A stretch of DNA of 32,463 nt from Oscillospiraceae bacterium (lineage in GTDB: Bacteria; Bacillota; Clostridia; Oscillospirales; Oscillospiraceae). The position numbers and the translations under genes are program-made. Positions 349-27,320 of this stretch are shown one piece after another. Positions within the stretch are counted from its first letter, which is position 1. Every line of letters begins with the position of its first letter. The notes beneath the pieces are model-generated. The model searched no databases. It worked only from the letters and a program-made list of their open reading frames with translations, and was not told where the DNA came from. Location of the stretch: NCBI GenBank assembly GCA_017469115.1, contig JAFUGY010000104.1, positions 1 through 32,463 on the forward strand, in the 5' to 3' direction.

Positions 349-2391
349 TTATTCAATTGTGAGTATTTCGGAAAAACCGGTGGCGTCGAAAACGTCCTTC
401 ACATTCTCATTTACATTTATTAGCTTCATTCCGCCGCGTTTAGCCATCATTTGTTCTGCCTGGAGCAGTACACGCAACCCTGCAGAGGAAACATACTCAA
501 GATTCTTGAAATCGAGGATCAGCTTATCAACGTTATCAAGAGAGGTTTTTGCCCAGGATTCAAACTTTGGCGCTGTAACAGAATCAAGCCTTCCTTCCAA
601 GGGCACAACAAGAACACCCGGTTCGTCCTTCTCCTCAGATATCCCCTGCTGAGATACAGCCGTGGCAGAAAACACAGGGCCTTCCACCATTTTGGTAAAG
701 AAGTTTTTCTGAACGTCTGTGGTAATAACATGCACAGGCTTTGTTGTAGAGGCGGAGGCACCCTTGAACTGCCTGAGTTCCAGATACAGCAGGCAGGTGT
801 CCTGCTGCATACGCTGAAGCGAAAGAGGATTTAAGCTCTCTAGCCCGTTAATCACCCACTGGTACACGTCGCTGATTTCCGATAGCTTCTTTTCCAGCAA
901 ATCTGCAAAAGCCTTCATATCAAGCTCAGTGTTCTTCTGCGGCTCAACAAGGAAGCGATAGCACATATTGTCGTAATCGGGGCAGACGCAGAAGTCGAAG
1001 ATAGGTTGATTCAGCTCTTCACTGACTTCGGCAACAGCTTTTTCAATGTCTGATTCCAGGATCTTTTCAGATGACATATTGATCATCTTGTTGACACGAC
1101 CTACAAAACGTATGGTTGGCGTTTCATTGAGCATACCCATGACGATGAAAGAGTCACTCATGCGGTAGCGGTATAGACCGGAATTATTTGTGATGACGAA
1201 TTCGTACTGCCTGCCGACCTCCAGCTTGTCCATTGTGACGATCTGCGAAAAGTCGCCATCGGCGTCAACAGGCAGGAACTCCATGAATAAACTTCCCGGT
1301 GTAAGCACTGAGATCTCGCTGTCTGTTTCAAATGGTGTGCTGTAAATGCCCTCCGTACTTGTTACTCCATAATAGATTCTGGTAAGGTTCTCACCTGTGT
1401 AGCGGTTTCGCATGATACGGTCATAGTTGGCAAAGCTACCACCCTTGCAGCCATAGATATACATCAGATTAGGCCAAATCACAGGCAGATATTGGAAATT
1501 AGTTCCATTTTTGAAGATCTCTTTGAGTTCTGCAGCGCGCTCGGGCATAGGTTTGATCTTCTTCAGCAGTGTTTCGCGGCATTCATCCTGCATTTTGATC
1601 TCTTCGTTGATGGTTCCTTTCTCAATATCGTCGATCAAAAGCTCATAATTTTTATCGATGTATTCCAGCATGGTAATAAGCAGCGGGAAGTACATGACGT
1701 TAATGCCGGTTATATCTCTGTCCTCAAGGGCAAAACGGCAATGGATATAACGGGTATCCCTTCCGTCAATGGTAGTGCCGGCTTCTACCGGGGAAGTGAA
1801 GGTGGTTCTCATAGTAATATCTGCGTTTTCAGGTCCGCCCATGTAGTCGACGATTTTAGCCGGGATATGACCATACGTTAAGCCACTGGGCAGTGTAAAC
1901 AGTTCTCCGGTATTCGGGCTGAAAGCACGACCACCACACCACTTGGTGCCGATTGCATTCACCAACACGGCTGTGCCGCACATGGAGTTATACTTTACAT
2001 AGGCGTTCTGATGCCGTTCCGTATAGGGGACGAATTTGGGTTTTCCGCTGGTACCGGAGGTTATATTAAAATGATCAAATGGATAGGCAGTTAATATATT
2101 TTGTTCTCCTTCAATCATGCGGTTAACATAAGGCTCAAAGTCTTCCCACACAGAAACCGGCAGTGCTTTCTGATAGTCTTCAATGGTGTGGATGTTTGCA
2201 AACCCATATTTTTTGCCGAATTCGGTATCCTTATTGTCTTCCAGAAGGGAGAAGAGCACCTCTTTCTGCACATCCATGGGATGCTTGGTTTCTTCCAGCA
2301 ATTTCTCAAATGCCTTGACGCTTAATTCTGCATTCTGAAGATTGGCCTGTAACGTCTGTTCTTTTTCCTGTTCAGTCCTGCAATATTCCAT
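349..2391 (-). CDS. GH3-family adenylating (acyl-acid amido synthetase-like) enzyme fused to a C-terminal STAS domain
   Basis: A 680-residue protein. Residues ~30-565 are GH3-like, with the nucleotide loop ITSGTSGKPKF (110-120), the second motif YYGVTSTEGIYSTP (340-353), GLYRYRMSD (405-413) and FVGRVNKMINMSSEKI (429-444). GH3 enzymes adenylate carboxylic acids and, in plants, conjugate them to amino acids; substrates of bacterial members are largely unknown. Residues ~590-680 form a STAS (anti-anti-sigma) domain with the acceptor site YVSSAGLRVLL (Ser635/636) and the typical DVFDATGFSEI ending. The start is set by an AAGGAGGA Shine-Dalgarno site just upstream. It is the last gene of a five-gene minus-strand operon, 28 bases after the MATE-ATPase gene. 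The enzyme is probably cytosolic and probably controlled through STAS phosphorylation or partner binding; the substrate cannot be read from the sequence. Confidence 0.85.
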   Translation of the reverse strand: MEYCRTEQEKEQTLQANLQNAELSVKAFEKLLEETKHPMDVQKEVLFSLLEDNKDTEFGKKYGFANIHTIEDYQKALPVSVWEDFEPYVNRMIEGEQNILTAYPFDHFNITSGTSGKPKFVPYTERHQNAYVKYNSMCGTAVLVNAIGTKWCGGRAFSPNTGELFTLPSGLTYGHIPAKIVDYMGGPENADITMRTTFTSPVEAGTTIDGRDTRYIHCRFALEDRDITGINVMYFPLLITMLEYIDKNYELLIDDIEKGTINEEIKMQDECRETLLKKIKPMPERAAELKEIFKNGTNFQYLPVIWPNLMYIYGCKGGSFANYDRIMRNRYTGENLTRIYYGVTSTEGIYSTPFETDSEISVLTPGSLFMEFLPVDADGDFSQIVTMDKLEVGRQYEFVITNNSGLYRYRMSDSFIVMGMLNETPTIRFVGRVNKMINMSSEKILESDIEKAVAEVSEELNQPIFDFCVCPDYDNMCYRFLVEPQKNTELDMKAFADLLEKKLSEISDVYQWVINGLESLNPLSLQRMQQDTCLLYLELRQFKGASASTTKPVHVITTDVQKNFFTKMVEGPVFSATAVSQQGISEEKDEPGVLVVPLEGRLDSVTAPKFESWAKTSLDNVDKLILDFKNLEYVSSAGLRVLLQAEQMMAKRGGMKLINVNENVKDVFDATGFSEILTIE

Positions 2392-2419
2392 CTTGTCCTC
2401 CTTGATTGATAATTTTCAT

Positions 2420-4198
2420 TTAAATACGAATCGTCAGCACGTTCAGGCCGACCAGGTATTGATACTGCACATCTTTCGCACCTTTATAGACCATGCGGAT
2501 CCCCATGTTCTTAATTTTATCATTTGGATCTACCAGATCCTTCCGTTCAGCAGGGTTAAAGGGCACACAATCGTCCCGGATGCGGAGGATTACGTCATCG
2601 TCCTTGTACACCACACGAATATCAACCGCATGTTTTTTACTGTCTTTTCGAAAGCCGTGGCTCACAACGTTGCCAGCCATCTCCTCCAGGAAAAGGCCGG
2701 AATAATAGGCACGCTTCTCATCAATGCCGCGGCTGCGGCAGAAAGCGATCACCTGCCTGGATACCGTGAGCACATCCTCCATGGAGCGAACAGAGAGATC
2801 GAGGCGGTTCTCTTTTTCAACCCCGAAGGAATCCCGAATGACCATCAGATCTTCCATATTACGCGGAAAGTGTTTTATCATCAGCCAAGCGTATCCGATC
2901 ACGATCAGGAAGGTCACCACACCGTTGAAAACATTGCCCCAATACGGGCCTTTTATTCCCAGATAACCGGTGAAAACAATGGCAAAACCCGCCACACATA
3001 CAAAGCCGTCCACTATAGAGAGCACATGGACGAGCCCCTGCTTGTTCGTAATCTGCCCGTAACAGATAAAGTGCATACAGATCACGATGAAAGGCATACA
3101 CAGCGGGAGAATCCGCAAGCCCAGCACCGTCATCCCGTAGACAGCCTCAGAAGGATCGCGGAAATAGATCCTCGTCAGGGGGACAGCGCAGATACTCAGC
3201 GTTGCAGAGATGATGCACATCAGAGGAACGTAGCGAGAAAACATAACACGCATAATATCGGTAAGAGACTGTCTGTCTTCCTCACCCACACTTACGGAAA
3301 TGAGCATACGTGAAACAGTCAGCATCCCTACTGGAATTGCCCAAAAAACATTAAGCAGCGTGTTTGCAGCGCTGAAAGCCGACACGCCTACACTGCCCAC
3401 ATAAGTAAGCAGCAGCCCGTTCACGATAAATCCGCGCACGGTCTGATACCCATCTGAGAGCGCACCGGGAATACCGACTTTCAGAATCTCCCCGCTTTCC
3501 CGCAGCTGCAGATGCTTCAGGGAAAGATGCAGCGAAGACCTCGCTCTGGTAAAATAACGGATCTGTACAAAGAGAAAGACGCAATCCGCAATAGCGTAAG
3601 CAAGCGCCAGCCCAAAAGCCCCCATATGCAGGACAAGGACAAACAGGATATCCAGAATCGCTACAACAACCACATAAAGGATACTCGACTGAAACATCAA
3701 CTTCTGCTGATTTTCCAGTGAGAGAAAAACCGCCAGCTGCGTGCTCAGCATGTAAGGCAGTGTGCCAATTGCTGAGCCGATCATATATTGGTTCAGCACT
3801 GGGCGGACAGCCGCATCCGACGTCAGAAAGCCGGAAAGATTGAACACACCAATCACCAGCAATGCAGACGCAAACAAAGCCCCGACGATGCCTGTGAGGA
3901 AAAGATCAAGGCAGAAAACATTCTGCACCTTTTCATGATCATTCTGACCCATATATTTCCCGCACAGGATAGATGCACCGCCGGTGAAAACTGTGCAGAC
4001 CGCTCCAAGCAGCGTATCGACCGGCCCCATGAGACCGATGGCGCTCATAGCTTCAAGGCCGATATAATTGCTGGCAAAGAAGCTGGTAATCAGATCATTG
4101 ACACAAACTACGGTCATCATCAGAATCTGAACCGGAAGGAGCCTGAACATAAGCCTGGTGACAAGCCCCATATTTCCTTCAAGATTTGCTGTTTTCAT
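2420..4198 (-). CDS. MATE-family transporter fused to a C-terminal RsbW/SpoIIAB-like ATPase domain
   Basis: A 592-residue protein. Residues ~1-440 have about twelve hydrophobic segments and the MATE layout (N-terminal PVQILMMTVVCVNDLITSFF, conserved GxxxxxxGxxxxxG-like helices), suggesting a cation-coupled multidrug or metabolite exporter. Residues ~455-592 form a cytoplasmic GHKL ATPase domain: N-box EEMAGNVVSHG (505-515, Asn510), G1-like RIRDDCVPF (around Asp542/543) and a degenerate G2 NMGIRMV (564-570). This domain resembles anti-sigma serine kinases more than sensor histidine kinases, and there is no H-box. The fusion suggests that transport is gated by, or signals through, STAS partners encoded in the same operon. 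ATG at 4198 is preceded by a modest GAGGG site. The degenerate G2 box leaves open that it binds nucleotide without kinase activity. Confidence 0.85.
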   Translation of the reverse strand: MKTANLEGNMGLVTRLMFRLLPVQILMMTVVCVNDLITSFFASNYIGLEAMSAIGLMGPVDTLLGAVCTVFTGGASILCGKYMGQNDHEKVQNVFCLDLFLTGIVGALFASALLVIGVFNLSGFLTSDAAVRPVLNQYMIGSAIGTLPYMLSTQLAVFLSLENQQKLMFQSSILYVVVVAILDILFVLVLHMGAFGLALAYAIADCVFLFVQIRYFTRARSSLHLSLKHLQLRESGEILKVGIPGALSDGYQTVRGFIVNGLLLTYVGSVGVSAFSAANTLLNVFWAIPVGMLTVSRMLISVSVGEEDRQSLTDIMRVMFSRYVPLMCIISATLSICAVPLTRIYFRDPSEAVYGMTVLGLRILPLCMPFIVICMHFICYGQITNKQGLVHVLSIVDGFVCVAGFAIVFTGYLGIKGPYWGNVFNGVVTFLIVIGYAWLMIKHFPRNMEDLMVIRDSFGVEKENRLDLSVRSMEDVLTVSRQVIAFCRSRGIDEKRAYYSGLFLEEMAGNVVSHGFRKDSKKHAVDIRVVYKDDDVILRIRDDCVPFNPAERKDLVDPNDKIKNMGIRMVYKGAKDVQYQYLVGLNVLTIRI

Positions 4199-4263
4199 TT
4201 TACGCCCTCACACAATCAGAATGTCAGGTTACCAATCTCGAGGATAAGATGCAATTGCACCAA

Positions 4264-4305
4264 CCTGCAGGCAATGATCATGGCATGACCATATCATCCT
4301 GCAGG
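4264..4305. other. intercistronic hairpin between the STAS gene and the MATE-ATPase gene
   Basis: Two copies of the palindrome CCTGCAGG (4264-4271 and 4298-4305) pair to close an inner stem (ATGAT/ATCAT, then ATGG/CCAT, loop CATGA). In the direction of the operon (minus) no T-run follows, so it is not a classical terminator. On the plus strand a short T-rich run follows (4308-4314), but no plus gene ends here. It may be an RNA processing or stability element that sets the relative expression of the upstream and downstream genes. Confidence 0.5.
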
Positions 4306-4340
4306 CTATTTTTTCTTGTATGCCTGTCGTTTCTCCGTGC

Positions 4341-4649
4341 TTATTCGGCAGCAACAAGATCGGAGAAACCTGTCATATCAAAGATCTCCATAATATATTC
4401 GTTCACATGAATCAGCTTCAGGCTGCCCCCCTCACCGCTCAGCTTCTGATCGATGCTCAGCAACATGCGCAGCCCTCCGGAGGAAACATAGTCTACCTCT
4501 GCAAAATCCATAATCACGTCTTTTATGCCTTTCAATTCCGGCTGCAGGCGCTTTTCCATTTCGGGAGAAGTGGCAGTGTCCAATCTCCCCGACGGTTTCA
4601 CGAATAGAGTTGTACCTTCTCTTTCACATTTGAAATTCAATTCATCCAT
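4341..4649 (-). CDS. stand-alone STAS-domain protein (anti-sigma factor antagonist type)
   Basis: A 102-residue single-domain STAS protein, the usual length of SpoIIAA/RsbV proteins. The acceptor loop reads DYVSSGGLRMLL with Ser56/Ser57 at the position phosphorylated by the cognate kinase in the family, followed by HVNEYIMEIFDMTGFSDL, a hallmark C-terminal helix and strand. ATG at 4649 follows a GAGGAGAA ribosome site. It lies 52 bases after the STAS-phosphotransferase gene and 142 before the MATE-ATPase gene, all in one direction. Expected role: binding the RsbW-like ATPase domain (free or MATE-fused) when unphosphorylated. No sigma factor is encoded beside it, so the usual transcriptional output is not evident. 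Confidence 0.88.
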   Translation of the reverse strand: MDELNFKCEREGTTLFVKPSGRLDTATSPEMEKRLQPELKGIKDVIMDFAEVDYVSSGGLRMLLSIDQKLSGEGGSLKLIHVNEYIMEIFDMTGFSDLVAAE

Positions 4650-4701
4650 TGCTGAATTTCTCCTCTCTATTTTAAGATTTTTAGATTTTTATATTTATGA
4701 T

Positions 4702-5880
4702 TCAGAACACCAGGGAATCCACCTTTGGCAACAGCTCTGACAAATTTGCACGGCAGATTTCGATCATCTTCCGGCCATCCTCGCGGTTCAGGCCGTTGCG
4801 GCGGATTTCCCGGCGCATCAATCTGGTCAAGCCGACAATTTTAGCCTTGGCTTCCACCTCGTCTATTCTGTTCTCATCTTCGGTGCCAAGATACAGCGCC
4901 AGGCTCTTGCGCCAGAATCTAAAACAGGTTTCATACGGTATTCCGAGAAACTTCGGTGTATGCTCATGGTTAACCAGGCCGAAACCCACGTAGGCATTGT
5001 ACATACTGGCCAATTCAAAAATGGGATGGCCATGGCAAAGTGTGTCCATATCGATCAGCAGGCTCTCGTTATTTTGCAGCATCACATTCTTCACATGGTA
5101 ATCCCCATGCATCAGATGCGCATCCTCCGGCACGGCGCTGATCATCGCAATCAGCTTTTCATGCTCCTCTGGGGGCAGATAATCTTTCAGAAACATTGCC
5201 CAATTCAGCGCAACTTTTTTCATGTCGGGCAAAATGTTCGAACGCACTTCCTTGGAGTGAATGAGCTTCAGCAGGCGGATGCTCATATCCGCTATCTCAT
5301 CCGGCGTTTTTTCACCTCTGATAATCAGTTTGGCATAGCTGGTCGCATTCAGCAGCTCGAAAACCGAACCAAAGCCACCGCCTTCAATACGCACCACATC
5401 ATAAGGAATTGCCGTGGGCACGCCCGCGACAAAAGCCAATCTTGCCAGTTCCCGCTCGCGGTGAATCTCCGGCAAGGCATCAGGGTTCAGGTAGACCTTG
5501 ACGATGGTATCCGGGTTGATGCGGTATACCTTGCCGTTGGCTCCCTGACCAATCACCTCGCACCCATCCACTGAAATCACGCGATAAGCTTTATGGACCT
5601 CCATCATTTCGGTGAAGCCGGTCATATCGAAAATGTTGTACAGCTCCGTATGGACATTCGTAAGGACGGTTGCATCCATTTTCTGCTTGAGGCGCAGGAT
5701 CACCCGAAGGTCGGCGCTGGTGCAATACTCCAGCTGATCACAATCCAGTTCCACGCTCTCACAGGGATTTGCGCTGCATATTCCTTGCAATTCCGTCTCT
5801 ACCGCCGGAGCATTTGCTGAATCGATGGTACCGGTGAGTGAAATGATCAGCTTCCCGTTGTCTGTTTTTGCTGTTATCAT
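4702..5880 (-). CDS. STAS domain fused to an aminoglycoside-phosphotransferase-like kinase
   Basis: A 392-residue fusion. Residues ~1-95 form a STAS domain with acceptor loop EYCTSADLRVIL (Thr54/Ser55) and YNIFDMTGFTEMM. Residues ~100-392 form an APH/choline-kinase-like fold: glycine loop IGQGANGKV (110-118), candidate Lys128, catalytic loop HGDYHVKN (258-265, Asp260, Asn265) and metal-binding IDMD (Asp277). The kinase half resembles a family of small-molecule phosphotransferases known from motifs only (the TIGR02172 type, by recollection); its substrate is unknown. ATG at 5880 follows AGGAGGA at a slightly long spacing. It lies 28 bases after the RsbW-like gene. All catalytic residues appear intact, so an active kinase is expected. 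Whether it phosphorylates a small molecule or a protein partner cannot be decided here. Confidence 0.85.
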   Translation of the reverse strand: MITAKTDNGKLIISLTGTIDSANAPAVETELQGICSANPCESVELDCDQLEYCTSADLRVILRLKQKMDATVLTNVHTELYNIFDMTGFTEMMEVHKAYRVISVDGCEVIGQGANGKVYRINPDTIVKVYLNPDALPEIHRERELARLAFVAGVPTAIPYDVVRIEGGGFGSVFELLNATSYAKLIIRGEKTPDEIADMSIRLLKLIHSKEVRSNILPDMKKVALNWAMFLKDYLPPEEHEKLIAMISAVPEDAHLMHGDYHVKNVMLQNNESLLIDMDTLCHGHPIFELASMYNAYVGFGLVNHEHTPKFLGIPYETCFRFWRKSLALYLGTEDENRIDEVEAKAKIVGLTRLMRREIRRNGLNREDGRKMIEICRANLSELLPKVDSLVF

Positions 5881-5908
5881 CTTATTTTAGTTTCCTCCTG
5901 ATACGGTC

Positions 5909-6319
5909 TCAAATTTTCTTGCGAATGGTCAGTATGTTCTGCCCGTCCCGGTAGTTGTAGCTGACACTGTCCATGATTCTCTTTACCATAAACAGCCCCA
6001 GCCCACCGATCGGCCGCTCGTTCGCCGGAAGATGGGTCGTATCCACGAACTTTGCCTTTAACGGATCATAAGGTACACCACGATCGATAAACGTAATGAT
6101 CACACACAGCGGATCCTTCTCCACATCCAGGCGCACCGTGGCTTTTCCGATTCCGGGATGATAGGCGTATCGGGCAATATTGCCGAAAAGCTCGTCAACA
6201 GCTACATCCAACTGGATCCGATTTCGCTCCGAGCAGCCAAGTTCTTTCAGCTTCGCATTGACAAAATCCATTACCGGTTTGATCTGTTCCAGGGTTGCAT
6301 CAACGGTCATCTCGTTCAT
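5909..6319 (-). CDS. RsbW/SpoIIAB-like ATP-binding anti-sigma/serine kinase protein
   Basis: A 136-residue GHKL-fold protein: N-box VAVDELFGNIARYAY (Glu43, Asn47), G1 box IDRGVPYDP (Asp79, Gly81), G2 box GGLGLF (105-110). Length and layout match the HATPase_c_2 family of switch kinases that phosphorylate STAS proteins. The frame is open further upstream to 6382, but the ATG at 6319 is preferred because it has an AAAGGGG site and gives the family-typical N-terminus MNEMTVDATLEQI. The longer start would place the candidate promoter inside the coding region. It is the first gene of the operon. Unlike typical partner-switch operons, no sigma factor or PP2C phosphatase gene is adjacent. Confidence 0.85.
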   Translation of the reverse strand: MNEMTVDATLEQIKPVMDFVNAKLKELGCSERNRIQLDVAVDELFGNIARYAYHPGIGKATVRLDVEKDPLCVIITFIDRGVPYDPLKAKFVDTTHLPANERPIGGLGLFMVKRIMDSVSYNYRDGQNILTIRKKI

Positions 6320-6358
6320 GAATTTGCCCCTTTCCGTTGTTTCGTAATCGATCTTTAT

Positions 6359-6394
6359 AGTATACCCTATCAAATCCATCAAATATCCATCAAA
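6359..6394 (-). promoter_or_regulatory. candidate operon promoter with phased direct repeats
   Basis: On the minus strand a TATACT -10 box (6359-6364) lies 40-45 bases before the ATG at 6319. No good -35 box is present. Instead two exact copies of TTTGATGGA (6375-6383 and 6386-6394) lie 11 bp apart, with a third partial copy (TTTGATAGG) at 6366-6374. One-turn spacing upstream of a promoter lacking a -35 box suggests an activator site. This is an inference. Confidence 0.45.
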
Positions 6395-6408
6395 CGGACC
6401 TGTTTTTG

Positions 6409-6453
6409 AAAAAAATTCAAAAAAATAGAGAACGGAAAGGTTCCATTCTCTAT
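6409..6453 (-). terminator. rho-independent terminator of the molybdenum hydroxylase/hydrolase operon
   Basis: The stem 6425-6437 / 6441-6453 pairs 12 of 13 positions (ATAGAGAACGGAA with TTCCATTCTCTAT), loop AGG. On the minus strand it is followed by a run of T (A-run on the plus strand, 6409-6425). It lies about 95 bases past the alpha/beta hydrolase stop and just upstream of the next operon's promoter. Confidence 0.85.
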
Positions 6454-6547: not shown

Positions 6548-7375
6548 TCACCGATTGAGGTGAAGAACTGTGCTAACCTCGTCGGCAAACTTCTCGGGAT
6601 TGTCACTCACCAGCATATGTGTGCTTTCCGGGAAGCACACTGCCCTGTAAGGGGAAACGACATGCTCTTTGTACCAATCGGCAAGAGCAGGCGGGAAGAG
6701 GGAACCGGGCTCGGCATAAAAATAGGTGACCGGCACCGTAATCTGCCCGACAATCGGACGATTATCCTGGGTTTTCATGGATGCCGCCAGACTTTTCAGC
6801 GTGGCTTCGTCGCAGGTGGCAAGTTTCTCCTCCAGAGGCTTCTTCAGGAGGAAGCCGGGGATTTTTTTCAGCTTCGGGACAGCGCCAACGGCGAATTCCT
6901 TGTACAGGGAATAAAAATTCTTCCCCGCATCCCGCTCCATATCTTCCTTTGTGTACTTCCCCTGATAGAGACCAAGCTTCCATTCTTCATCATTGAGCTG
7001 TTTGGGCGTCATGTCACAGAGGATAATCTGCTTCAGGGCAGAGCAGCCATAGAGCCGGACATAGTTGAACACAACTCCGGCGCCCATGGACCATCCCAGA
7101 AGGGTGATATTGGAAAGCGAAAGGCCCTGAATGATTTCATTCAGATCGCCGGCAAGGGTTTCCATGGTAGGGTTTTGCCCTGTGGTTTTTTTGCTCTCTC
7201 CATGCCCCCGATGATCATAGATTATGCATCTGGCCTGATTTTGGAGGGTTTCCACCGGCTCGGAATAGACTTCATGAGAGCTTGTCCAGCCGTGCATCAT
7301 GATCAGGGTATCCGGCCCCTGTCCCCTGTCCTCATAATAGAGTTGCTCGCCGCTGCTCAGTGTAAAGTAGCTCAT
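6548..7375 (-). CDS. alpha/beta hydrolase
   Basis: A 275-residue protein of the alpha/beta-hydrolase fold. Oxyanion region MMHGWTS (27-33), strand and turn YDHRGHGES (53-61), nucleophile elbow GWSMG (Ser96) and catalytic His in ESTHML (about 253) are all visible. The frame opens at 7423, but ATG at 7375 is preferred: an AAAGGAA site precedes it and MSYFTLSSGEQLYYEDRG is the usual start of such hydrolases. There is no signal peptide, so it should be cytosolic. It lies 68 bases downstream of the FAD subunit and before a strong terminator, so it is probably the last gene of the molybdenum hydroxylase operon. The substrate (ester, lactone, amide or halide) is unknown; co-transcription hints at a step in the same catabolic route. 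Confidence 0.85.
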   Translation of the reverse strand: MSYFTLSSGEQLYYEDRGQGPDTLIMMHGWTSSHEVYSEPVETLQNQARCIIYDHRGHGESKKTTGQNPTMETLAGDLNEIIQGLSLSNITLLGWSMGAGVVFNYVRLYGCSALKQIILCDMTPKQLNDEEWKLGLYQGKYTKEDMERDAGKNFYSLYKEFAVGAVPKLKKIPGFLLKKPLEEKLATCDEATLKSLAASMKTQDNRPIVGQITVPVTYFYAEPGSLFPPALADWYKEHVVSPYRAVCFPESTHMLVSDNPEKFADEVSTVLHLNR

Positions 7376-7443
7376 CAAACAGTTCCTTTCTTTTTTGTTA
7401 CCGGTTTCATGAAACGGAATCATCCATGATTCTGTTTTTCTTT

Positions 7444-8262
7444 TCAGATTCCGAATTTGGACAGGAAGGCGTCCAGAAGATTCATGCAGACCTGTTTTCG
7501 GTATTCTGCGCTGACGCGCCCCTTTGTGAGCATCATGCGCTCATCATATGCCTTGAGATATTCAGGCTTCAGGTGTTTTGCTTCTTCAAACGTCTTTCCG
7601 ATGAGCATTGCTTCCAGATCCTTATAGCGCAGAACGGTATCTGCCACCGCGCCGAAGGCCGCGGAAAGCTTTGTAATCCGGCCATCTGCACTGTCGAAAA
7701 CCCCGGCAAAGGACACTCTGGAAATTGCCAGTGCATTGCGGCCGCCGACTTTTTCATAAGCATACCGGTCGAGACCGTGTTTCGGCAACAGCACTTCGGC
7801 AATCAGCTCATCCTTTCTGAGATCGAGCTTCTTGCGGCCGAGATAAAACCCGTCAACGTTTACGATGCGCTCTCCAATTGCTGAGACAAGGCGCAGCTTC
7901 GCATCTGCAGCAAATTCCACCACAACCGTGTCCGCTTTCGCAGAGCCGTTGCCGAGATTTCCGCCAAAGGTGCCTGCATTGCGAATGGCAGGGGCAGCAA
8001 TGCGGGAAACCGCTTCTTTCATCAGCATGGGCACGTTGGGGTCTGCAAGCGCTTCGGTAAAGGTTACGGCAGCGCCGATGCGGATTTCTTCCTCATCTAC
8101 GCGGATCTGCCTCAGCTCCGGGATTTTATTCAGAAAGAGGTATTCCGCATTTTTACGGTTTTCCACCATGAGATCGGTACCGCCGGCATAAGGGATGATA
8201 TCGCGCTCTGCCAGTATTTCAAGCGCTTCCTTCAGAGTGGAAGGCACAACTCCGTTTACCAT
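7444..8262 (-). CDS. FAD-binding subunit of a molybdenum hydroxylase (xanthine dehydrogenase family)
   Basis: A 272-residue protein with the FAD_binding_5 signature AGGTDLMV near residues 26-33 and the family motif AIRNAGTFGGNLGNGSAKAD, followed by the CO-dehydrogenase-flavoprotein C-terminal part. It passes electrons from the iron-sulfur subunit to the acceptor. Length (about 270-290) is normal for a separate FAD subunit. Its ATG at 8262 overlaps the end of the iron-sulfur subunit gene by 7 bases, which implies translational coupling. Xanthine dehydrogenase is the commonest function, but nicotinate, purine or other N-heterocycle hydroxylases share the same subunit, so the substrate is left open. 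Confidence 0.88.
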   Translation of the reverse strand: MVNGVVPSTLKEALEILAERDIIPYAGGTDLMVENRKNAEYLFLNKIPELRQIRVDEEEIRIGAAVTFTEALADPNVPMLMKEAVSRIAAPAIRNAGTFGGNLGNGSAKADTVVVEFAADAKLRLVSAIGERIVNVDGFYLGRKKLDLRKDELIAEVLLPKHGLDRYAYEKVGGRNALAISRVSFAGVFDSADGRITKLSAAFGAVADTVLRYKDLEAMLIGKTFEEAKHLKPEYLKAYDERMMLTKGRVSAEYRKQVCMNLLDAFLSKFGI

Positions 8263-8729
8263 AGCCCGCTCCCTTCCTCGGCTGCCTGTTTGACAGCGTT
8301 TACAATGGCATTATAACCCGTACAGCGACAGAGGTTTCCGGAAAACCCTTCCCGGATTTTCTCTTCATCCGGGTGCGGATTTTTGGAGAGCAGAGCCTCG
8401 GCTGCCAGCAGCATACCGGGCGTGCAGAACCCGCACTGTACAGCGGAAACGCTGCCGAAGGCCTTCTCCAAAACAGCGAATCGCTCCGTTTCGCGAAATC
8501 CCTCCAAGGTGACAACATCGGCACCTTCCACCGCGCCCATGGCAACGCAGCAGGAATTATAAAGGGTATGATTGATCAGCACGCTGCAGGCGCCGCATTC
8601 TCCTTCTTTGCATCCGCATTTCACGCTTGTGCAGCGGAAGATCTCGCGCAGCACATCCAGGAGCCGGTCTGCTGCGCTGCCGGTGTAGGTGACTTGCCTG
8701 CCGTTGAGCACAAATTGAATGGCATCCAT
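8256..8729 (-). CDS. [2Fe-2S] iron-sulfur subunit of a molybdenum hydroxylase
   Basis: A 157-residue protein with both 2Fe-2S clusters. The plant-ferredoxin-type cluster uses Cys40, Cys45, Cys48 (CKEGECGAC) and Cys60. The second, alpha-helical cluster uses Cys99 and Cys102 (CGFC) with Cys134 and Cys136 (LCRCTGY). All eight ligands are present. It relays electrons from the molybdenum centre to FAD. It starts 1 base after the stop of the large subunit gene and overlaps the FAD subunit gene at its 3' end, so the three subunits should be made together. Length is typical (about 155-165). Confidence 0.92.
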   Translation of the reverse strand: MDAIQFVLNGRQVTYTGSAADRLLDVLREIFRCTSVKCGCKEGECGACSVLINHTLYNSCCVAMGAVEGADVVTLEGFRETERFAVLEKAFGSVSAVQCGFCTPGMLLAAEALLSKNPHPDEEKIREGFSGNLCRCTGYNAIVNAVKQAAEEGSGLW

Positions 8730-8730
8730 C

Positions 8731-10860
8731 TCAGATTCCCTCCTTTTCGATCACAGAGAGAACATCCTCTGCCGTAAACGGAATATGATGAAGGCTTTTG
8801 CCTCCCATGGCCTGTTCCACTGCTTCCAGAAAAGCAGCCGGAGCACCGACCAGAGGCAATTCCCCGGCGCCTTTCGCTCCGTAAGGGCCATAGGGGAATT
8901 TTTCGACATGCAGGATACACTGAAGATTCGGGACGTCCTGCGCCGTAGGGATCAGATAATCGGAAAACGAATGGTTGCGGATGCGACCTTTGGCATCATA
9001 ATCCATCTTTTCCATGGAGGAGTAGCCTATCCCCTGAAGGAAGCCTCCCTCCAGCTGGCCTATCACAATGTTCTCATCGATCGGCGTGCCGACATCAAAA
9101 CTCCCGTAGGCGCCAAGCACTCTGATAAAGCCGGTGAGGGTGTCAACCTCCACTTCAATGGCGTTGACTGCCCAGGCATAGGTCGGATAGGCGTCACCCG
9201 TGACGGTGCTGAGGTCGAACGGGATCAGATAATCCGGATGCCGGTAGTGCTCTTCCACTTCCTGCTCTTCCCCATCAACCCATTCCCTGCGCAACTTTTC
9301 GGCTGCACGGCGCAGCAGTTCCCCGACCACCATGATGGAACGGGAGGCAACCGTCGGGCCGGAGTCGGCAACGCGAGCGGTGTCGGGATGGTTGCAAATA
9401 ATCCTGTCCATCGGAAGATTCAGCTCATGGGCGACTATTTTTGAGAAGGTGGTACGAACCCCCTGCCCGATATCCCCGCTGGCTGCCAGAATTTCCACGG
9501 TACCGTCTTTATACTTTCGCAGTTTCGCCACCGCTTTGATGATATCGCGCTCCCCGGAGCCGGTAAAACCGGCGCCATGAAACAGCAACGACATGCCGAT
9601 GCCGCGGCGAAAACGCCCAGACTGAGGGAGCCCATATGCCTTTCGCTTTTCCCGATAATTACAGACTTTATCGAGTTCTTCTATCATGGCGGGAATGGGG
9701 ACCGGATCATGATATCTGCCTCTGGTGGATGTGAAATCTCCCTGTTTGCTGCAATGCGCTTCCTTGAAGGCAAGGGAATCCACACCGAGATCACGCGCGA
9801 TATGGTCCATCATCATTTCCACTGCAAAGAAAGTCTGCGGGGCACCGAAACCGCGATATGCACCGGAAGGCGTGGTGTTGGTTTTCACCGCTCTGCCGCG
9901 TATGTGAAGATTGGGAACCTGATAAATGCCGGGAGAGGCAATGATGCCGCGCTGCAGCACAACCGCAGAGAGGGTTGAATATGCACCGGCATTGAAGATG
10001 ACATCAATGTCCATCGCAGTGATTCTGCCGGACTTCACGGCAACCCGATAACGGCACAGGGAGGGGTGACGCTTGGAAGAATATTCCATATCCTCCCGCC
10101 GATCAAACACACAGCGCACGGGTTTCCCGCATTTGTGGGCAGCTACCGCCACCTGACTGCCGAGAATTGACGGAAATGCCTCTTTGCCGCCGAATGCACC
10201 GCCGGTTACGTCCTGCATAATATGAACGCCTTCCGGACCGCAGCCAAGCACGCGCGCCACAGCATTGCGGATATAAAAGATGCACTGCGTTGACCCGTGA
10301 ACAAACATGCGCCCATCGGATTCCGGCTGCGCCATCATCCCCTGGGGTTCCAGATATGCCTGCTCCTGGTAGCCGGTTTCAAATTCCTCGTCATAGATTT
10401 TGTCCGCCTCGGCAAATGCCTTTTCCACATCGCCGTGGCCATAAGCATAATCAAAGAAACTTTGCGTCGCCCTTCGCAGATCAAGCACAGGTTCCAGCTC
10501 CTCGTACTCGACAAGGCATGCATCCCGCAGGGATTCCACGATTTTCTCCTCGGGGCCGCACAACATGGCAATCGGTTCTCCAATATACTCAACGGTTTCC
10601 CGACAGAAAACAGGGGTGTCATCCAGGACGATGTTGACATTGTTATCGCCCGGGACATCTTTCGCATCCACATAGAAATATCCTTCCGGAAGCTCAGGCA
10701 CAGTAACCTTCACCACTCTGGCGCGTGCCACCGTTGCATGAAGCAGCTTGCCGAAAAGCACGCCTTCGGAGGGGTAATCCGCAACATAGATACTGCGGCC
10801 GGAGGCTTTTTCAGCATGATCTTTTTTAACGACACTTTGGCTGATGGTATTGATTATAAT
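8731..10860 (-). CDS. molybdenum-binding large subunit of a molybdenum hydroxylase; apparent non-AUG start
   Basis: Large catalytic subunit of the xanthine dehydrogenase/aldehyde oxidase family, about 709 residues from the proposed start. Visible motifs: GGAFGGKE (cofactor loop), AYRGFGAPQ (substrate/cofactor Arg) and KGAGELPLVGAPA, which carries the catalytic Glu. The first ordinary start codon in frame is GTG at 10761, but the 30-odd codons upstream encode the conserved N-terminus SVVKKDHAEKASG..YVADY. Between that and an in-frame TAA (about 40 bases before the proposed start) there is no ATG, GTG or TTG. An AAGGAGA site (10865-10871) points to ATT at 10860 or ATA at 10857. A TTGATT-17-TATAAT promoter lies just upstream. 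Substrate unknown; xanthine or another purine is the default guess. Selection, sequencing error or a true rare start all remain possible. Confidence 0.85.
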   Translation of the reverse strand: MIINTISQSVVKKDHAEKASGRSIYVADYPSEGVLFGKLLHATVARARVVKVTVPELPEGYFYVDAKDVPGDNNVNIVLDDTPVFCRETVEYIGEPIAMLCGPEEKIVESLRDACLVEYEELEPVLDLRRATQSFFDYAYGHGDVEKAFAEADKIYDEEFETGYQEQAYLEPQGMMAQPESDGRMFVHGSTQCIFYIRNAVARVLGCGPEGVHIMQDVTGGAFGGKEAFPSILGSQVAVAAHKCGKPVRCVFDRREDMEYSSKRHPSLCRYRVAVKSGRITAMDIDVIFNAGAYSTLSAVVLQRGIIASPGIYQVPNLHIRGRAVKTNTTPSGAYRGFGAPQTFFAVEMMMDHIARDLGVDSLAFKEAHCSKQGDFTSTRGRYHDPVPIPAMIEELDKVCNYREKRKAYGLPQSGRFRRGIGMSLLFHGAGFTGSGERDIIKAVAKLRKYKDGTVEILAASGDIGQGVRTTFSKIVAHELNLPMDRIICNHPDTARVADSGPTVASRSIMVVGELLRRAAEKLRREWVDGEEQEVEEHYRHPDYLIPFDLSTVTGDAYPTYAWAVNAIEVEVDTLTGFIRVLGAYGSFDVGTPIDENIVIGQLEGGFLQGIGYSSMEKMDYDAKGRIRNHSFSDYLIPTAQDVPNLQCILHVEKFPYGPYGAKGAGELPLVGAPAAFLEAVEQAMGGKSLHHIPFTAEDVLSVIEKEGI

Positions 10861-13831: not shown

Positions 13832-13835
<4 letters not shown>
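12093..13835 (+). CDS. dnaG: DNA primase
   Basis: A 580-residue primase that makes RNA primers for replication at the fork. The CHC2 zinc ribbon uses Cys38, His41, Cys59 and Cys62 ([20 protein letters not shown]). The TOPRIM catalytic core shows [13 protein letters not shown] (conserved Glu) and [11 protein letters not shown] (acidic pair). The C-terminal ~150 residues should be the helicase-binding domain. The frame is open back to a TTG at 12075, but ATG at 12093 gives the conserved N-terminus [20 protein letters not shown] and sits 2 bases after the dgt stop. No strong ribosome site is seen, so translation is probably coupled to dgt. It overlaps rpoD by 4 bases. Confidence 0.96.
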
Positions 13836-15151
<1,316 letters not shown>

Positions 15152-23963: not shown

Positions 23964-25991
23964 ATGGGTTTCTTAAAGAAAGTGGCATACTTTTTTAAAG
24001 TTTTGCTGATTCTGGTTTTTTTGGTCGTGTTTCTGGCATTCACGCTGTCCTTCAGCAGCCAGATTACGAAGAAGATCCCCTTCCTTTACGGGGAAAAAAT
24101 GGTTTCGTTATCCTCGGGAGAATATCCGGAGAGCACGACAGCGTTGACAGCGGTTGTCGGGCCAGAGGATCTGGCGCTTCTGGATGGGTTCGTCTCTCTC
24201 TCCTCGGCAGACTTCAGCGGAAGCACCTGCTACAATGAAATCAACCAGTGGGCTGCGGCGCATCCGGCTGTGAGCGTACGCTACACCGTACCCCTGCCGA
24301 ACGGGAGTCTGGCTGAAAACACTGCTTCGGCTATCGATCTCACGGGGCTGCGGCATGAAGACGTTGGTTCGGCCCTGACAGCCCTGCAGACTCTGCCGCA
24401 GATTGCTTCCATCAACCTGGGCAGTTCTTCGCAGTCATCCTCACCGGTTACGGCAGAGGATGTGGCGGCGTTTCAAACGACATTCCCGTCAGCCAGCATT
24501 TCGTACGGTGTGGAATTTCTCGGCAGGACGCTGCCGATTGACACGGAAACAGTGGATCTGACGGGGCTGACTTCGGCGCAGGTTGGAGAGGCCGCAAGAG
24601 GGCTTTCGCTCCTGCCCAACGTGAAGAGAATTCAGATTGCGGATAACGCCACAACCGACGGAAGCCTGCAGTGGGAAGATTTGACGACCATTTCGCATGC
24701 AGCGCCGGCTGCCGCAATGGATTATAAATTCACGGTGTGCGGTGTGAATGCCACCACGGCTGACACCACCCTTGATCTTCGCAACATCACACCCGGTGAT
24801 GTGAGCAGCGTGCTGGCAGTTCTGCCCGGAATGAGCCAGCTGCAGTATATTGAATTGGGCCATTACAGCAACGGCCTCAGCTTTGCTGACCTGCAGGCGA
24901 TTGCAAACGCCTGCCCGGCTGCCACGATTTCGATGGTGTGTGCGGTTTACGACAAGGAGTTTAATCTGGCAGATGAAGTGCTGGATCTGAACCATATTCG
25001 CGTCACGGATAACGGTGCGGATGTGAAAAACTTTTTGCCGTATATGAAGAACCTGAAGATGCTGGATATGGACTCATGCGGAGTGCCGGATCAGGCGATG
25101 GCAGAGATCCGGGATGCGTACCCGCAGGTGAATGTGGTGTGGCGCGTATGGTTCGGAAGAGAATACAGCGTGAGAACGGACGTGGTGAAGATTCTGGCCT
25201 CCAAGCCTTCGAAGGGCGGCGACATCACCAATGAAAACTCCGCCGGCCTTTATTACTGCACGAAGGTGCGGTATCTGGATCTCGGACACAACGATCAGCT
25301 GACAGACTTCTCCTTTGTGCGCAATATGCCGGATCTGCAGATCGTGGTGATTTCGATGACGGGTATTGCCGACCTCTCTCCCTTCAGCAGCTGCGCAGAA
25401 CTGATTTATCTGGAAATGGGTAACACGAGGGTTTCGGATGTATCGCCTCTGGCGGCATGCACGAAGCTGCGTCATCTGAACATCGGCACCAATGCAGGGA
25501 TCTCGGACATCACAGCTTTGTATGATATTCCGATGCTGCGCTTCTGGATCGGCGTGGGTGACCCCGTGCCGCAGGAACAGGTTGACACCTACCGCAGCCT
25601 GCATCCGGAGTGTGAAGTGAACACCACCGTGCCAACGGGTCTGGAACGCAATGCCAACGGCGGAGCCGTGAACGAAGGCTACACCTCGGAAAACTGGAAG
25701 ATCTACCAGCGCTACCTGACGGCAGACTGGGCTTATTATTCCGCGCACAACCAGGTCTTCCCGGCACAGCGGCCGCTGGGATACTATAAAGTAGTGTATC
25801 TTGCTTTCCAGTATAATCTGGCAGATGCATCTTATGCGTTTTCGTGGAATGACCCGCTGTACGATGCCCACGGCGAAGGCGTTGAGCCGGCGCACATGAA
25901 AGTTGTGGATGTGTCGATCCTCTTTGAAGAATGGCACGACCATGACATTCTTGAGCCGATCTATCCGGAAGACGAAACCAACTATGGCTGA
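23964..25991 (+). CDS. membrane-anchored leucine-rich-repeat family protein, paralogue 1
   Basis: A 675-residue protein. Residues ~8-30 are a single hydrophobic segment after a basic N-terminus, a signal anchor placing the rest outside the cell. Residues ~110-330 hold repeats of about 85 residues starting with a DLTGL..V element (IDLTGL, VDLTGL, LDLRNI, LDLNHI) and containing ALxxLPxLxxIxLG. The block LDMDSCGV..DAYPQVNVVWRVWFG..YSVRTDV..ILAS is shared with the two next genes. It is followed by about five classic LRR units (VRYLDLGHN, LIYLEMGN, LRHLNIGTN). The module ends with YAFSWNDPLY plus an acidic tail. No enzyme motif was recognised. It is the first of three paralogues in tandem; possible roles are adhesion or ligand binding at the surface, which is inference. 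Confidence 0.75.
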   Translation: MGFLKKVAYFFKVLLILVFLVVFLAFTLSFSSQITKKIPFLYGEKMVSLSSGEYPESTTALTAVVGPEDLALLDGFVSLSSADFSGSTCYNEINQWAAAHPAVSVRYTVPLPNGSLAENTASAIDLTGLRHEDVGSALTALQTLPQIASINLGSSSQSSSPVTAEDVAAFQTTFPSASISYGVEFLGRTLPIDTETVDLTGLTSAQVGEAARGLSLLPNVKRIQIADNATTDGSLQWEDLTTISHAAPAAAMDYKFTVCGVNATTADTTLDLRNITPGDVSSVLAVLPGMSQLQYIELGHYSNGLSFADLQAIANACPAATISMVCAVYDKEFNLADEVLDLNHIRVTDNGADVKNFLPYMKNLKMLDMDSCGVPDQAMAEIRDAYPQVNVVWRVWFGREYSVRTDVVKILASKPSKGGDITNENSAGLYYCTKVRYLDLGHNDQLTDFSFVRNMPDLQIVVISMTGIADLSPFSSCAELIYLEMGNTRVSDVSPLAACTKLRHLNIGTNAGISDITALYDIPMLRFWIGVGDPVPQEQVDTYRSLHPECEVNTTVPTGLERNANGGAVNEGYTSENWKIYQRYLTADWAYYSAHNQVFPAQRPLGYYKVVYLAFQYNLADASYAFSWNDPLYDAHGEGVEPAHMKVVDVSILFEEWHDHDILEPIYPEDETNYG

Positions 25992-26009
25992 TAAGGAGAC
26001 TGACCTTTG

Positions 26010-27320
26010 ATGTTGCATCTGAAGCGCATTTTCCTTCTGCTTGTAGTAGGTTTTATGTCTCTGGTGTTTGTCACACCCTTCTTCACTCTCTTTGCCAAAA
26101 AAGAGCCCATCCCGACAGCGACGCCTGCGCCCACTGCACCGCCCACGCCGGAGCCCACACCTCAGCCATTTGCGGACGGGTTTGACCTGCTGGGCAGGCA
26201 TTACGACATCGACACAGAGGAGATTGACCTGTCGGGCATTTCGGAGGCAAACGGGCAGGACATCGCCGTTTTCTGTCAGGCAGCACCCTATGCCGGGAAT
26301 CTAAAAAATGTGATACTCGGTGATGAAAGGACTACCCCTGTCAACTGGCATATCATTGCGCAGCTTCAGGAAGCGGCACCGAACGTCCACTTCGCCTACA
26401 GCTTCAGCCTTTACGGTGAGCCGATGACGCTGGACACCGAGTATATTGACCTTCGCAAAATCCCGGTGGAGGATAACGGGGCTGCCGTGGTTTCCGCTCT
26501 GCCGTGCATGAAAAACTGCACCACGCTGGACATGGATCAGAGCGGCGTGGACAGTGAACACATGGCGATGATCCGGGATTCTTTTCCGCAGGTAAAGGTG
26601 ATCTGGAGGGTGTGGTTCAGCATTCTGGATTACAGCTGCAGGACGAACGCGAAAACCATCCTCGCCTCGCTGGCGGGGGACGGCGGACTCACGGATGAAG
26701 AAAGCTGCAAACCTCTCACCTACTGCACGGATGTGGTGAACCTGGACGTTGGGCATAACAACCACATGCGGACACTGTATTTTCTGCAATATATGCCGAA
26801 CCTTGAGGTGTTTATCACTTATAACAACTATCTGCGGGATGTGGATGACCTGGCATACTGCAAGAAGCTGAAATATGTGGAGCTTTACGGCAGCTCGATG
26901 TACAACATCAATGCCATCGGGGAGCTTTATGAGCTGACGGATCTGCAGCTCGGCGGTTGCTACAATTTGAATGATATCTCCCCGATTATCCCCGCTGACC
27001 GCGTGCCGAAAATCCAGCGCCTGTGGCTGACGCCCGGGCAAATCCCGCAGGAACAGATTGAGGCATTCAAACAGAACCACCCGGGGTGTGAAGTGAATGA
27101 CACGGATGATTCCGTCGGCTATTACTGGCGGTTTATCGACCCCATCCACGCTTACAACTCGGAAGAAAACAGAACGCCGGCCTACCGGAAGATCGTCTCA
27201 ATTTTCCATTACGGAGCGGACGATAACGCAAACTACAGCTTTTCCAGAAACGATCCTTACTACACCACGCCCCACGGCGAGCCGGTTACAGGAGAGCGTG
27301 TAGAATGGTTTTACGGGTAA
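26010..27320 (+). CDS. membrane-anchored leucine-rich-repeat family protein, paralogue 2 with proline-rich spacer
   Basis: A 436-residue protein with one N-terminal hydrophobic segment (IFLLLVVGFMSLVFVTPFF) followed by a Pro/Thr-rich spacer (PTATPAPTAPPTPEPTPQPF), typical of a cell-wall-crossing stalk. The single module then shows EEIDLSGI, YSFSLYGEPMTLDTEYIDL, the block KVIWRVWF..ILAS and LRR-like units (VVNLDVGHN, LKYVELYG, LTDLQLGG), ending NYSFSRNDPYY. ATG at 26010 is chosen; a TTG directly before it (26007) has the same AAGGAG site at a closer spacing. The gene starts 18 bases after paralogue 1 and overlaps paralogue 3 by 16 bases, so the three form an operon. Function unknown. Confidence 0.75.
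   Translation: MLHLKRIFLLLVVGFMSLVFVTPFFTLFAKKEPIPTATPAPTAPPTPEPTPQPFADGFDLLGRHYDIDTEEIDLSGISEANGQDIAVFCQAAPYAGNLKNVILGDERTTPVNWHIIAQLQEAAPNVHFAYSFSLYGEPMTLDTEYIDLRKIPVEDNGAAVVSALPCMKNCTTLDMDQSGVDSEHMAMIRDSFPQVKVIWRVWFSILDYSCRTNAKTILASLAGDGGLTDEESCKPLTYCTDVVNLDVGHNNHMRTLYFLQYMPNLEVFITYNNYLRDVDDLAYCKKLKYVELYGSSMYNINAIGELYELTDLQLGGCYNLNDISPIIPADRVPKIQRLWLTPGQIPQEQIEAFKQNHPGCEVNDTDDSVGYYWRFIDPIHAYNSEENRTPAYRKIVSIFHYGADDNANYSFSRNDPYYTTPHGEPVTGERVEWFYG

Follow-up and report, generated by a model that had tools for sequence, protein, structure and literature searches.

In this work, we analyzed a stretch of 32,463 nucleotides from an Oscillospiraceae bacterium (hereafter, the window), which is the whole of contig C111 in a draft genome of 2.64 Mb, 148 contigs and 89% completeness. 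Positions 349-6319 of its minus strand hold an operon that encodes, in transcription order (genes 5 to 1), a HATPase_c_2 protein, a STAS-APH fusion, a STAS protein, a MATE-HATPase_c_2 fusion and a GH3-STAS fusion. Partner switching is known chiefly as a way of controlling sigma factors. Our sequence comparisons make it probable that this operon is a partner-switching module that is free of a sigma factor and acts on proteins, not on transcription, the transporter-fused HATPase domain being its receiver.

The five genes carry the switch and effector domains that an initial annotation of this DNA had assigned to them, at the same places and with short gaps (28, 52, 142 and 28 bases, in transcription order), as judged by open reading frames and Pfam (Table 1). 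The candidate promoter of that annotation is weak: a pattern scan flagged nothing scoring at least 9/12 in 6319-6425. The grouping is more than chance, because both HATPase_c_2 (PF13581) domains above the Pfam cut-off in the whole draft genome fall in the operon (four weaker matches lie elsewhere), as do three of its six STAS domains, the remaining ones being on contigs C84, C106 and C130. All five announced switch domains are present, but they are not equivalent: one is an intact kinase, three are STAS domains with the acceptor serine and one, on the MATE transporter, is degenerate.

We aligned 168 HATPase domains and checked the E and N of the N box, the D and G of the G1 box and three glycines of the G2 box, following what we take to be the usual box names. 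The full residue set is kept in 68 of 70 stand-alone, PP2C-fused or STAS-APH-fused domains. All 92 MATE-fused domains have the N-box glutamate and 78 have the G1 aspartate; the G1 glycine is kept in 23, the second G2 glycine in 8 and the first in none. Furthermore, a profile of the MATE-fused domain matches solved SpoIIAB only as far as the G1 box. Because the G2 box is systematically lost in the transporter-fused domains and kept in nearly all the others, the former look like receivers, not kinases. The window follows the pattern: gene 5 is intact, and in the MATE domain the G2-box glycines are replaced by K and N and the G1 glycine by Cys. The serine aligned with that of SpoIIAA, presumably the phosphoacceptor, is present in 97 of 98 STAS domains and in all three of the window.

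A putative second transporter family bearing such a receiver is that of the ATP-binding cassette (ABC) ATPases. In the five ABC-ATPase-fused C-terminal domains (one on contig C106 of the same genome, the others at loci L188, L196, L205 and L235), the G2 glycine pair, its first glycine and the G1 aspartate are each kept in 0/5. The domains matched our home-built profiles with E values from 4e-10 to 8e-6 (7.5e-12 for L205), and all four from other genomes sit in stretches with STAS and PP2C genes. The copy of the window's own genome (L222:6891-7982 in G000:C106) is an amino-acid-type ABC ATPase beside SBP_bac_3 and BPD_transp_1 genes, with a degenerate RsbW-like C-terminus.

The individual products agree with these assignments. 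Gene 5 matches the solved RsbW 6m36 (E 4e-4) and has all its N-, G1- and G2-box residues; it probably starts at the ATG at 6319, behind a purine-rich stretch, rather than at the TTG at 6382 (157 residues), as read by eye. Gene 4 matches NCBIfam TIGR02172 (2.6e-22, under the cut-off of that model), carries HGDYHVKN...IDMD (HGDxHxxN plus DxD) and keeps its serine in YCTSADLR; among the 33 APH genes of the locus set, HGDxHxxN is found in 25, and DxD as well in 23. For gene 3, the matching structures are 4hyl, RsbV (6m36_B) and SpoIIAA (1th8_B), with the SpoIIAA serine aligned. Gene 2 matches MatE (PF01554) in two stretches, at 60.9 bits against a cut-off of 24.9, and lies below all the NCBIfam MATE cut-offs displayed. 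Gene 1 matches JAR1 (2.5e-38), further plant GH3 proteins and STAS structures, and has the motifs TSGTSGKPK (the ATP motif) and YRYRMSD.

Table 1. Genes of the operon and the hairpin at its upstream side (aa, amino acids)
Feature	Position	Strand	Evidence
Gene 5: stand-alone RsbW/SpoIIAB-like serine kinase (HATPase_c_2), 136 aa	5909..6319	-	Pfam 3.5e-22
Gene 4: STAS plus APH-type phosphotransferase (STAS-APH), 392 aa	4702..5880	-	Pfam STAS 1.5e-10, APH 1.8e-16
Gene 3: stand-alone STAS protein, 102 aa	4341..4649	-	Pfam STAS 4e-15; TIGR00377 above cut-off
Gene 2: MATE-family transporter plus C-terminal degenerate HATPase_c_2, 592 aa	2420..4198	-	MatE 1.5e-16, HATPase_c_2 4.2e-12
Gene 1: GH3 acyl-acid-amido-synthetase-like plus C-terminal STAS, 680 aa	349..2391	-	GH3 2.9e-70, GH3_M, GH3_C, STAS 1.7e-15
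Terminator-like hairpin separating the operon from the alpha/beta-hydrolase gene upstream	6425..6453 (6453-6425)	-	13-pair stem plus TTTTTT, pattern match only

The MATE-fused HATPase domain was further used as a query against 400 genomes from the family (E <= 1e-4), of which 110 gave a match; most of the matches listed have reading frames of about 580-660 residues, as long as a MATE fusion. From the ranked list we read 100 neighbourhoods, 60 in its upper part (a few short or broken frames were skipped) and 40 lower down; some genomes contributed several loci, and many stretches end at contig edges. As controls we took 20 stretches on contigs from 15 of these genomes, keeping a distance of about 13 kb or more from HATPase matches, so that their lack of HATPase genes is partly by choice. 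With home-built profiles, the 100 loci contained MATE-HATPase (85), SpoIIE-type PP2C (59), STAS (53), a further HATPase (52), APH (23), LPG_synthase_C (12), PHP (10), GNAT (7), formyltransferase (5) and methyltransferase (5) genes. The controls contained AMP-binding (2), formyltransferase (1) and MATE (1) genes; STAS, PP2C, APH, further HATPase and the remaining parts were found in 0/20. At least one of STAS, PP2C and a second HATPase accompanies 55 of the 85 MATE-HATPase genes, and all three accompany 27. The conserved clustering that the initial annotation had called for is therefore real, and the homologues are not scattered. A wider search of 398 genomes from the phylum gave matches in 33 (E <= 1e-6); besides the window's own genome, 11 had one in a frame of 574-640 residues, a length that suggests the fusion.

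One order of genes found repeatedly is STAS, MATE-HATPase, one enzyme, and PP2C or PP2C-HATPase, with HATPase and STAS-APH(-HATPase) genes before or after. PP2C is a usual member of the module. Locus L064 (genome G358) has, on one strand, NHLP exporter genes for ribosomally synthesized and post-translationally modified peptides (RiPPs), STAS-APH, HATPase, PP2C, GH3, MATE-HATPase and STAS, that is, the content of the window plus a phosphatase. A second form of the module lacks MATE and consists of PP2C(-HATPase), STAS and STAS-APH(-HATPase), sometimes with a PHP phosphoesterase (e.g. L208 and L216). The nearest relatives of the window's MATE-HATPase (L097-L100) have STAS-APH(-HATPase) nearby, PHP in three cases and GH3 in none. 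PHP-domain phosphoesterases stand alongside STAS-APH(-HATPase) at L056, L098, L099, L100, L111, L114, L122, L125, L190, L208 and L216; the enzyme is perhaps the opposing phosphatase for the APH product.

GH3 is one among several enzymes in a swappable slot of this module. The slot is taken by GH3 at L064, L065 and L066, by GNAT at L145, L148, L149, L153, L183 and L201, by formyltransferase at L140 and L141 and by methyltransferase at L184, L187, L189 and L191; at other loci LPG_synthase_C genes stand in or beside it, and some loci have no slot enzyme (Pfam on representatives). A strict "amine acylation" role for the slot is weakened, since a methyltransferase (Pfam, L185) occupies it in four MATE-HATPase rows. 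The co-occurrence of GH3, MATE-HATPase and STAS-APH proposed by the initial annotation stood in part: GH3 immediately follows MATE-HATPase in all five loci with both (the window, L064, L065, L066 and a GH3 fragment at a contig edge, G384:C305), and STAS-APH accompanies the pair in the window and L064, but only one locus, the window, has the GH3-STAS fusion among the 14 GH3 loci read, a further one being truncated by its contig end, and GH3 is elsewhere a separate gene or fused to a nonribosomal peptide synthetase (NRPS).

Full-length GH3 (E <= 1e-30) is present in 12 of the 400 family genomes, all of them within the 110 with a HATPase match. The hypergeometric probability of this overlap, 1.2e-7, is too small because the genomes are related; at genus level, 9/9 GH3 genera have the match against 46/106 (3e-4). 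Weak PF03321 matches, with E values between 3e-8 and 8e-4 and mostly covering some 100 residues close to the N-terminus, were excluded from the 12 as likely other adenylate-forming enzymes, the G384:C305 fragment was counted only as a contig-edge GH3, and the full-length GH3 of G364 falls outside the loci read. Among 11 GH3 loci of other family genomes, five have a switch context (L056, L058, L064, L065 and L066), one is NRPS-adjacent (L062) and five have neither, four of these on stretches of 4-11 kb. A single origin of GH3 in the module was considered and rejected, as well-supported branches of the GH3 tree force at least three context changes; GH3 kinship has no predictive value for context, since shuffled labels do equally well in 184 of 500 trials. 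In a quick, midpoint-rooted MATE tree with some long branches, the window's MATE-HATPase lies in the opposite half from the copies of L064, L065, L066 and G384, so the pairing of GH3 with MATE-HATPase probably arose on two or more occasions. The second GH3 of the window's genome (L015:1-4314 in G000:C122, minus strand) is an NRPS-like fusion of adenylation, peptidyl carrier protein and condensation domains (A-PCP-C) with GH3, cut by the contig end; it is divergent from two genes that look cyclic-nucleotide-binding and a cyclase-looking gene (labels by eye or home profile).

The statement that neither a sigma factor nor a PP2C is present is correct for the operon and fails beyond it. The best sigma match in the genome is RpoD, within the window itself (13832-15151), and no SigB/F/G-type sigma factor (TIGR02980) was found above the cut-off in the 89% complete draft, extracytoplasmic function (ECF) types not having been searched. 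With three query sequences, sigma genes were found in 2 of the 100 neighbourhoods versus 1 of the 20 controls; at L214 a distance of 1.8 kb separates it from a PP2C-HATPase of the other strand, and at L101 it follows, after 2.1 kb and in the same direction, a MATE-HATPase without linked switch genes. Three SpoIIE-type PP2Cs are encoded on other contigs (C66, C105 and C49); on the stretches read, none of them adjoins STAS or HATPase genes, and the one on C49 is two genes away from a MATE fragment at the contig end. The C105 phosphatase shares 63% identity over 709 residues with its counterpart in the L111 module and 72% with a phosphatase of L211, and would be the best candidate for acting in trans on the operon. 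With STAS fused to GH3 and no linked phosphatase, the window version of the module is unusual.

A working model can be drawn from these comparisons. The gene 5 kinase would phosphorylate the STAS domains of the stand-alone protein, STAS-APH and GH3-STAS, and a SpoIIE-type phosphatase, usually encoded in the same cluster in relatives and here supplied in trans, would dephosphorylate them. The HATPase domain of the MATE protein, having lost its ATP lid, would be a receiver to which a STAS protein docks in one of its phosphorylation states, opening or closing the exporter; SpoIIAA and RsbV dock to the kinases of their own systems in a similar way. Through their STAS domains, GH3 and APH would come under the same control or be brought to the transporter. 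GH3 would make an amide of an acyl or aryl acid with an amino acid, and the MATE protein would export the amide or its precursor. In this scheme we infer the kinase and phosphatase activities, the binding of STAS to the MATE domain, the direction of gating, the chemistry and the substrate. The initial annotation had likewise proposed post-translational control of the synthesis, modification and export of one small molecule. Control of metabolic effectors remains the best reading of a recurring sigma-free module; the proposal was incomplete in that a PP2C normally belongs to it, and "one small molecule" goes further than the data.

Several observations weigh against this reading. Both exceptions in the kinase class, the PP2C-HATPases of L184 and L189, are degenerate too. 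The N-box asparagine is kept in 52 of the 92 MATE-fused domains, and that of the window keeps both the N-box glutamate and asparagine, so that it may retain weak ATP binding or kinase activity. The ABC-fusion link is weaker because the C106 copy has no Pfam HATPase_c_2 (PF13581) match at 0.01. Within the stretches fetched, many of which are cut by contig ends, 30 of the 85 MATE-HATPase loci lack STAS, PP2C and a second HATPase altogether, and only 27 have all three. Besides, the 100 loci were picked by similarity to the window's domain, not at random, and there is no PP2C in the operon or the window.

These observations bear on three other explanations. The transporter could be the sensor: substrate binding or flux would alter its HATPase domain, which would phosphorylate or sequester STAS, with GH3, APH or unlinked targets as outputs. 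The invariant N-box glutamate, the frequent G1 aspartate (78/92) and the loci without linked partners fit this idea, and so does the fusion of STAS to APH and here also to GH3, which makes these look like outputs. It is nonetheless unlikely, as the first G2 glycine is missing from every MATE-fused domain and the second is kept in only 8/92, a degeneracy that speaks against kinase activity although not against sequestration; furthermore, intact kinases and PP2Cs with hydrophobic N-termini (by eye) are already present in many modules.

A conventional transcriptional switch, with its sigma target elsewhere (RpoD, an unassembled SigB/F or another type) and with MATE, APH and GH3 as operon cargo, seems more doubtful still. 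Gene 5 does resemble RsbW, RpoD is present, the genome is incomplete and ECF types lay outside the search, but no SigB/F/G passed the cut-off, sigma genes are no regular neighbours of the module (2/100 versus 1/20) and the supposed cargo is covalently joined to switch domains. We disfavor as highly improbable that the genes merely share promiscuous domains, their clustering reflecting the expansion of these families. STAS, HATPase and MATE genes are numerous in the family and 30 of the 85 MATE-HATPase loci are unlinked, yet STAS, PP2C and APH were found in none of the controls, the order STAS, MATE-HATPase, enzyme, PP2C recurs, and GH3 is paired with MATE-HATPase in two distant branches. Altogether, direct control of the transporter and the enzymes through their switch domains accounts best for the operon.

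A broader proposal, which we put forward tentatively and at slightly under even confidence, is that such sigma-free modules form an apparently undescribed class, common in the family and found elsewhere in the phylum, that directly controls the tailoring and transport of small molecules. A dead RsbW-type domain, borne by transporters as unrelated as the MATE protein and the amino-acid-type ABC ATPase, would be the receiver, STAS the messenger, PP2C the sensor and the intact kinase the brake, with a swappable group-transfer slot (GH3, GNAT, formyl-, methyl- or LPG-synthase-like). The window would then be an extreme form, in which even the slot enzyme bears its own STAS domain. What the modules transport may then be a signal or protective metabolite accompanying the RiPP exporters, contractile injection systems or NRPSs found next to some of them. 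NHLP export genes were found in 9 of the 100 loci, markers of extracellular contractile injection systems (eCIS; Pvc16_N or DUF4280) in 8 and adenylation-condensation (A-C) synthetases in 4, against 0/20 controls. As evidence for the NHLP labels we took matches of representatives to TIGR03796 and TIGR03797 (of five full-length ones, four are above the cut-off and one just below) and, for the Nif11-type leader of L065, to TIGR03798; for the injection labels, we took matches of representatives to PF14065 and PF14107.

Such exporter genes of the NHLP/NHLM type lie near switch genes at L064, L134, L135, L140, L144, L145, L156, L197, L204 and L207, with the Nif11-type leader at L065. At L155, L177, L178, L181, L184, L189, L195 and L202, switch modules stand directly beside contractile-injection runs (Pvc16_N, DUF4280, AAA) of the same direction. 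In the window no exporter or synthetase stands beside the operon, where the contig ends 348 bases past gene 1; as the window is the whole contig, the sequence past base 1, on the downstream side of the operon, is cut off.

Other switch genes of the same genome are found in comparable surroundings. Contigs C106 and C130 each encode one further STAS-APH; that of C130 adjoins an A-PCP-C synthetase, an FkbM methyltransferase and an AMP-ligase, and that of C106 is 12 kb from an NHLP-type RiPP exporter (above the NCBIfam cut-off). The STAS gene of C84 follows an A-PCP-C synthetase and a MATE gene without HATPase, and the contig ends there. In G174, of the same genus, the same run (L231; 87, 88 and 70% identical) continues into HATPase and PP2C genes, so the window's genome probably has a second switch module past the end of C84.

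The genes upstream of the operon, beyond the terminator-like hairpin, share its direction (6548-10761): they encode an alpha/beta hydrolase and three subunits of xanthine-dehydrogenase type, two of the subunits being identified by Pfam and the third by eye. The xanthine-dehydrogenase genes, together with PreA-like genes near L111, L122 and L022, had suggested purine or pyrimidine catabolism, a candidate that we dropped: the former gave one match each among the loci searched, the window itself, and PreA-like genes occur in 4 of the 100 neighbourhoods, both of which count against a nucleobase pathway. Farther away, three successive large open reading frames on the plus strand (23964-29551; 675, 437 and 748 residues) have leucine-rich-looking repeats and hydrophobic N-termini and are apparently paralogous to each other, by eye. 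A 326-residue open reading frame (29622-30602) appears to resemble the half of GMP synthetase that is the ATP-pyrophosphatase, and seems to lack the amidotransferase domain.

The putative output of the module is covalently joined to switch domains, a degenerate RsbW on the transporter and STAS on the enzymes, which makes a direct output at the protein level testable with purified parts. If confirmed, it would be a common route for controlling metabolite transport in these bacteria, and it would help to track down the metabolites that go with RiPP and contractile-injection loci. Titles and abstract openings among the matches listed, in which few subscription journals are covered, contained no description of MATE-HATPase proteins, GH3-STAS proteins or such a module, and "GH3" and "STAS domain" came up jointly, among the matches listed, only for plants and a fungus. 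The available portion of a STAS review does not mention MATE, GH3 or HATPase, nor does that of an NHLP-family paper mention phosphatases, anti-sigma factors or MATE.

Compared with characterized systems, gene 1 shares the GH3, GH3_M and GH3_C domains and the ATP-binding motif with the GH3 synthetases JAR1 and GH3.12 and with bacterial OlsH, but bears a C-terminal STAS; its identification as OlsH was rejected at a score of 82 bits against a cut-off of 620. In Pseudomonas savastanoi, iaaL-matE likewise places an acyl acid-amino acid conjugating enzyme beside a MATE exporter of the same pathway (PMC7074806), although that MATE is thought to export the free acid and not the conjugate; the sections of the paper at hand do not mention switch domains, and the word "GH3" is absent from its text. 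For partner switching without a sigma factor, SypE-SypA appears as a precedent in the excerpts consulted. The Bordetella BtrU-BtrV-BtrW phosphatase, STAS protein and kinase also govern secretion otherwise than by a plain sigma switch; this is type III secretion, and in the passages available no fusion of a switch domain to a transporter or biosynthetic enzyme is mentioned (PMC7498569). The outputs of SypA and BtrUVW as sigma-independent switches are called unknown in the excerpts on each. MlaB-MlaF offers a transporter component bound by a STAS protein, with post-translational regulation proposed; it differs in being an ABC transporter instead of a MATE one, with STAS on the ATPase subunit and, in the part of the paper available, no RsbW-like kinase mentioned (PMC7367683).

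The closest likeness is to the Bacillus switches SpoIIAB-SpoIIAA-SpoIIE and RsbW-RsbV-RsbU. The domains and profiles of the operon match solved RsbW, RsbV, SpoIIAA and SpoIIAB in a PDB comparison, and both sides have an RsbW-like kinase, a STAS protein with the acceptor serine and, in many related modules, a SpoIIE-type PP2C. A kinase with N, G1 and G2 boxes and the STAS serine were found and, ECF types aside, a sigma target was not found in the incomplete genome, so we describe the operon as working like an RsbW/SpoIIAB switch without classing it as one. Unlike the Bacillus switches, it has switch domains that are part of a transporter, of a phosphotransferase and of a GH3 enzyme, a degenerate HATPase on the transporter and the phosphatase outside the operon.

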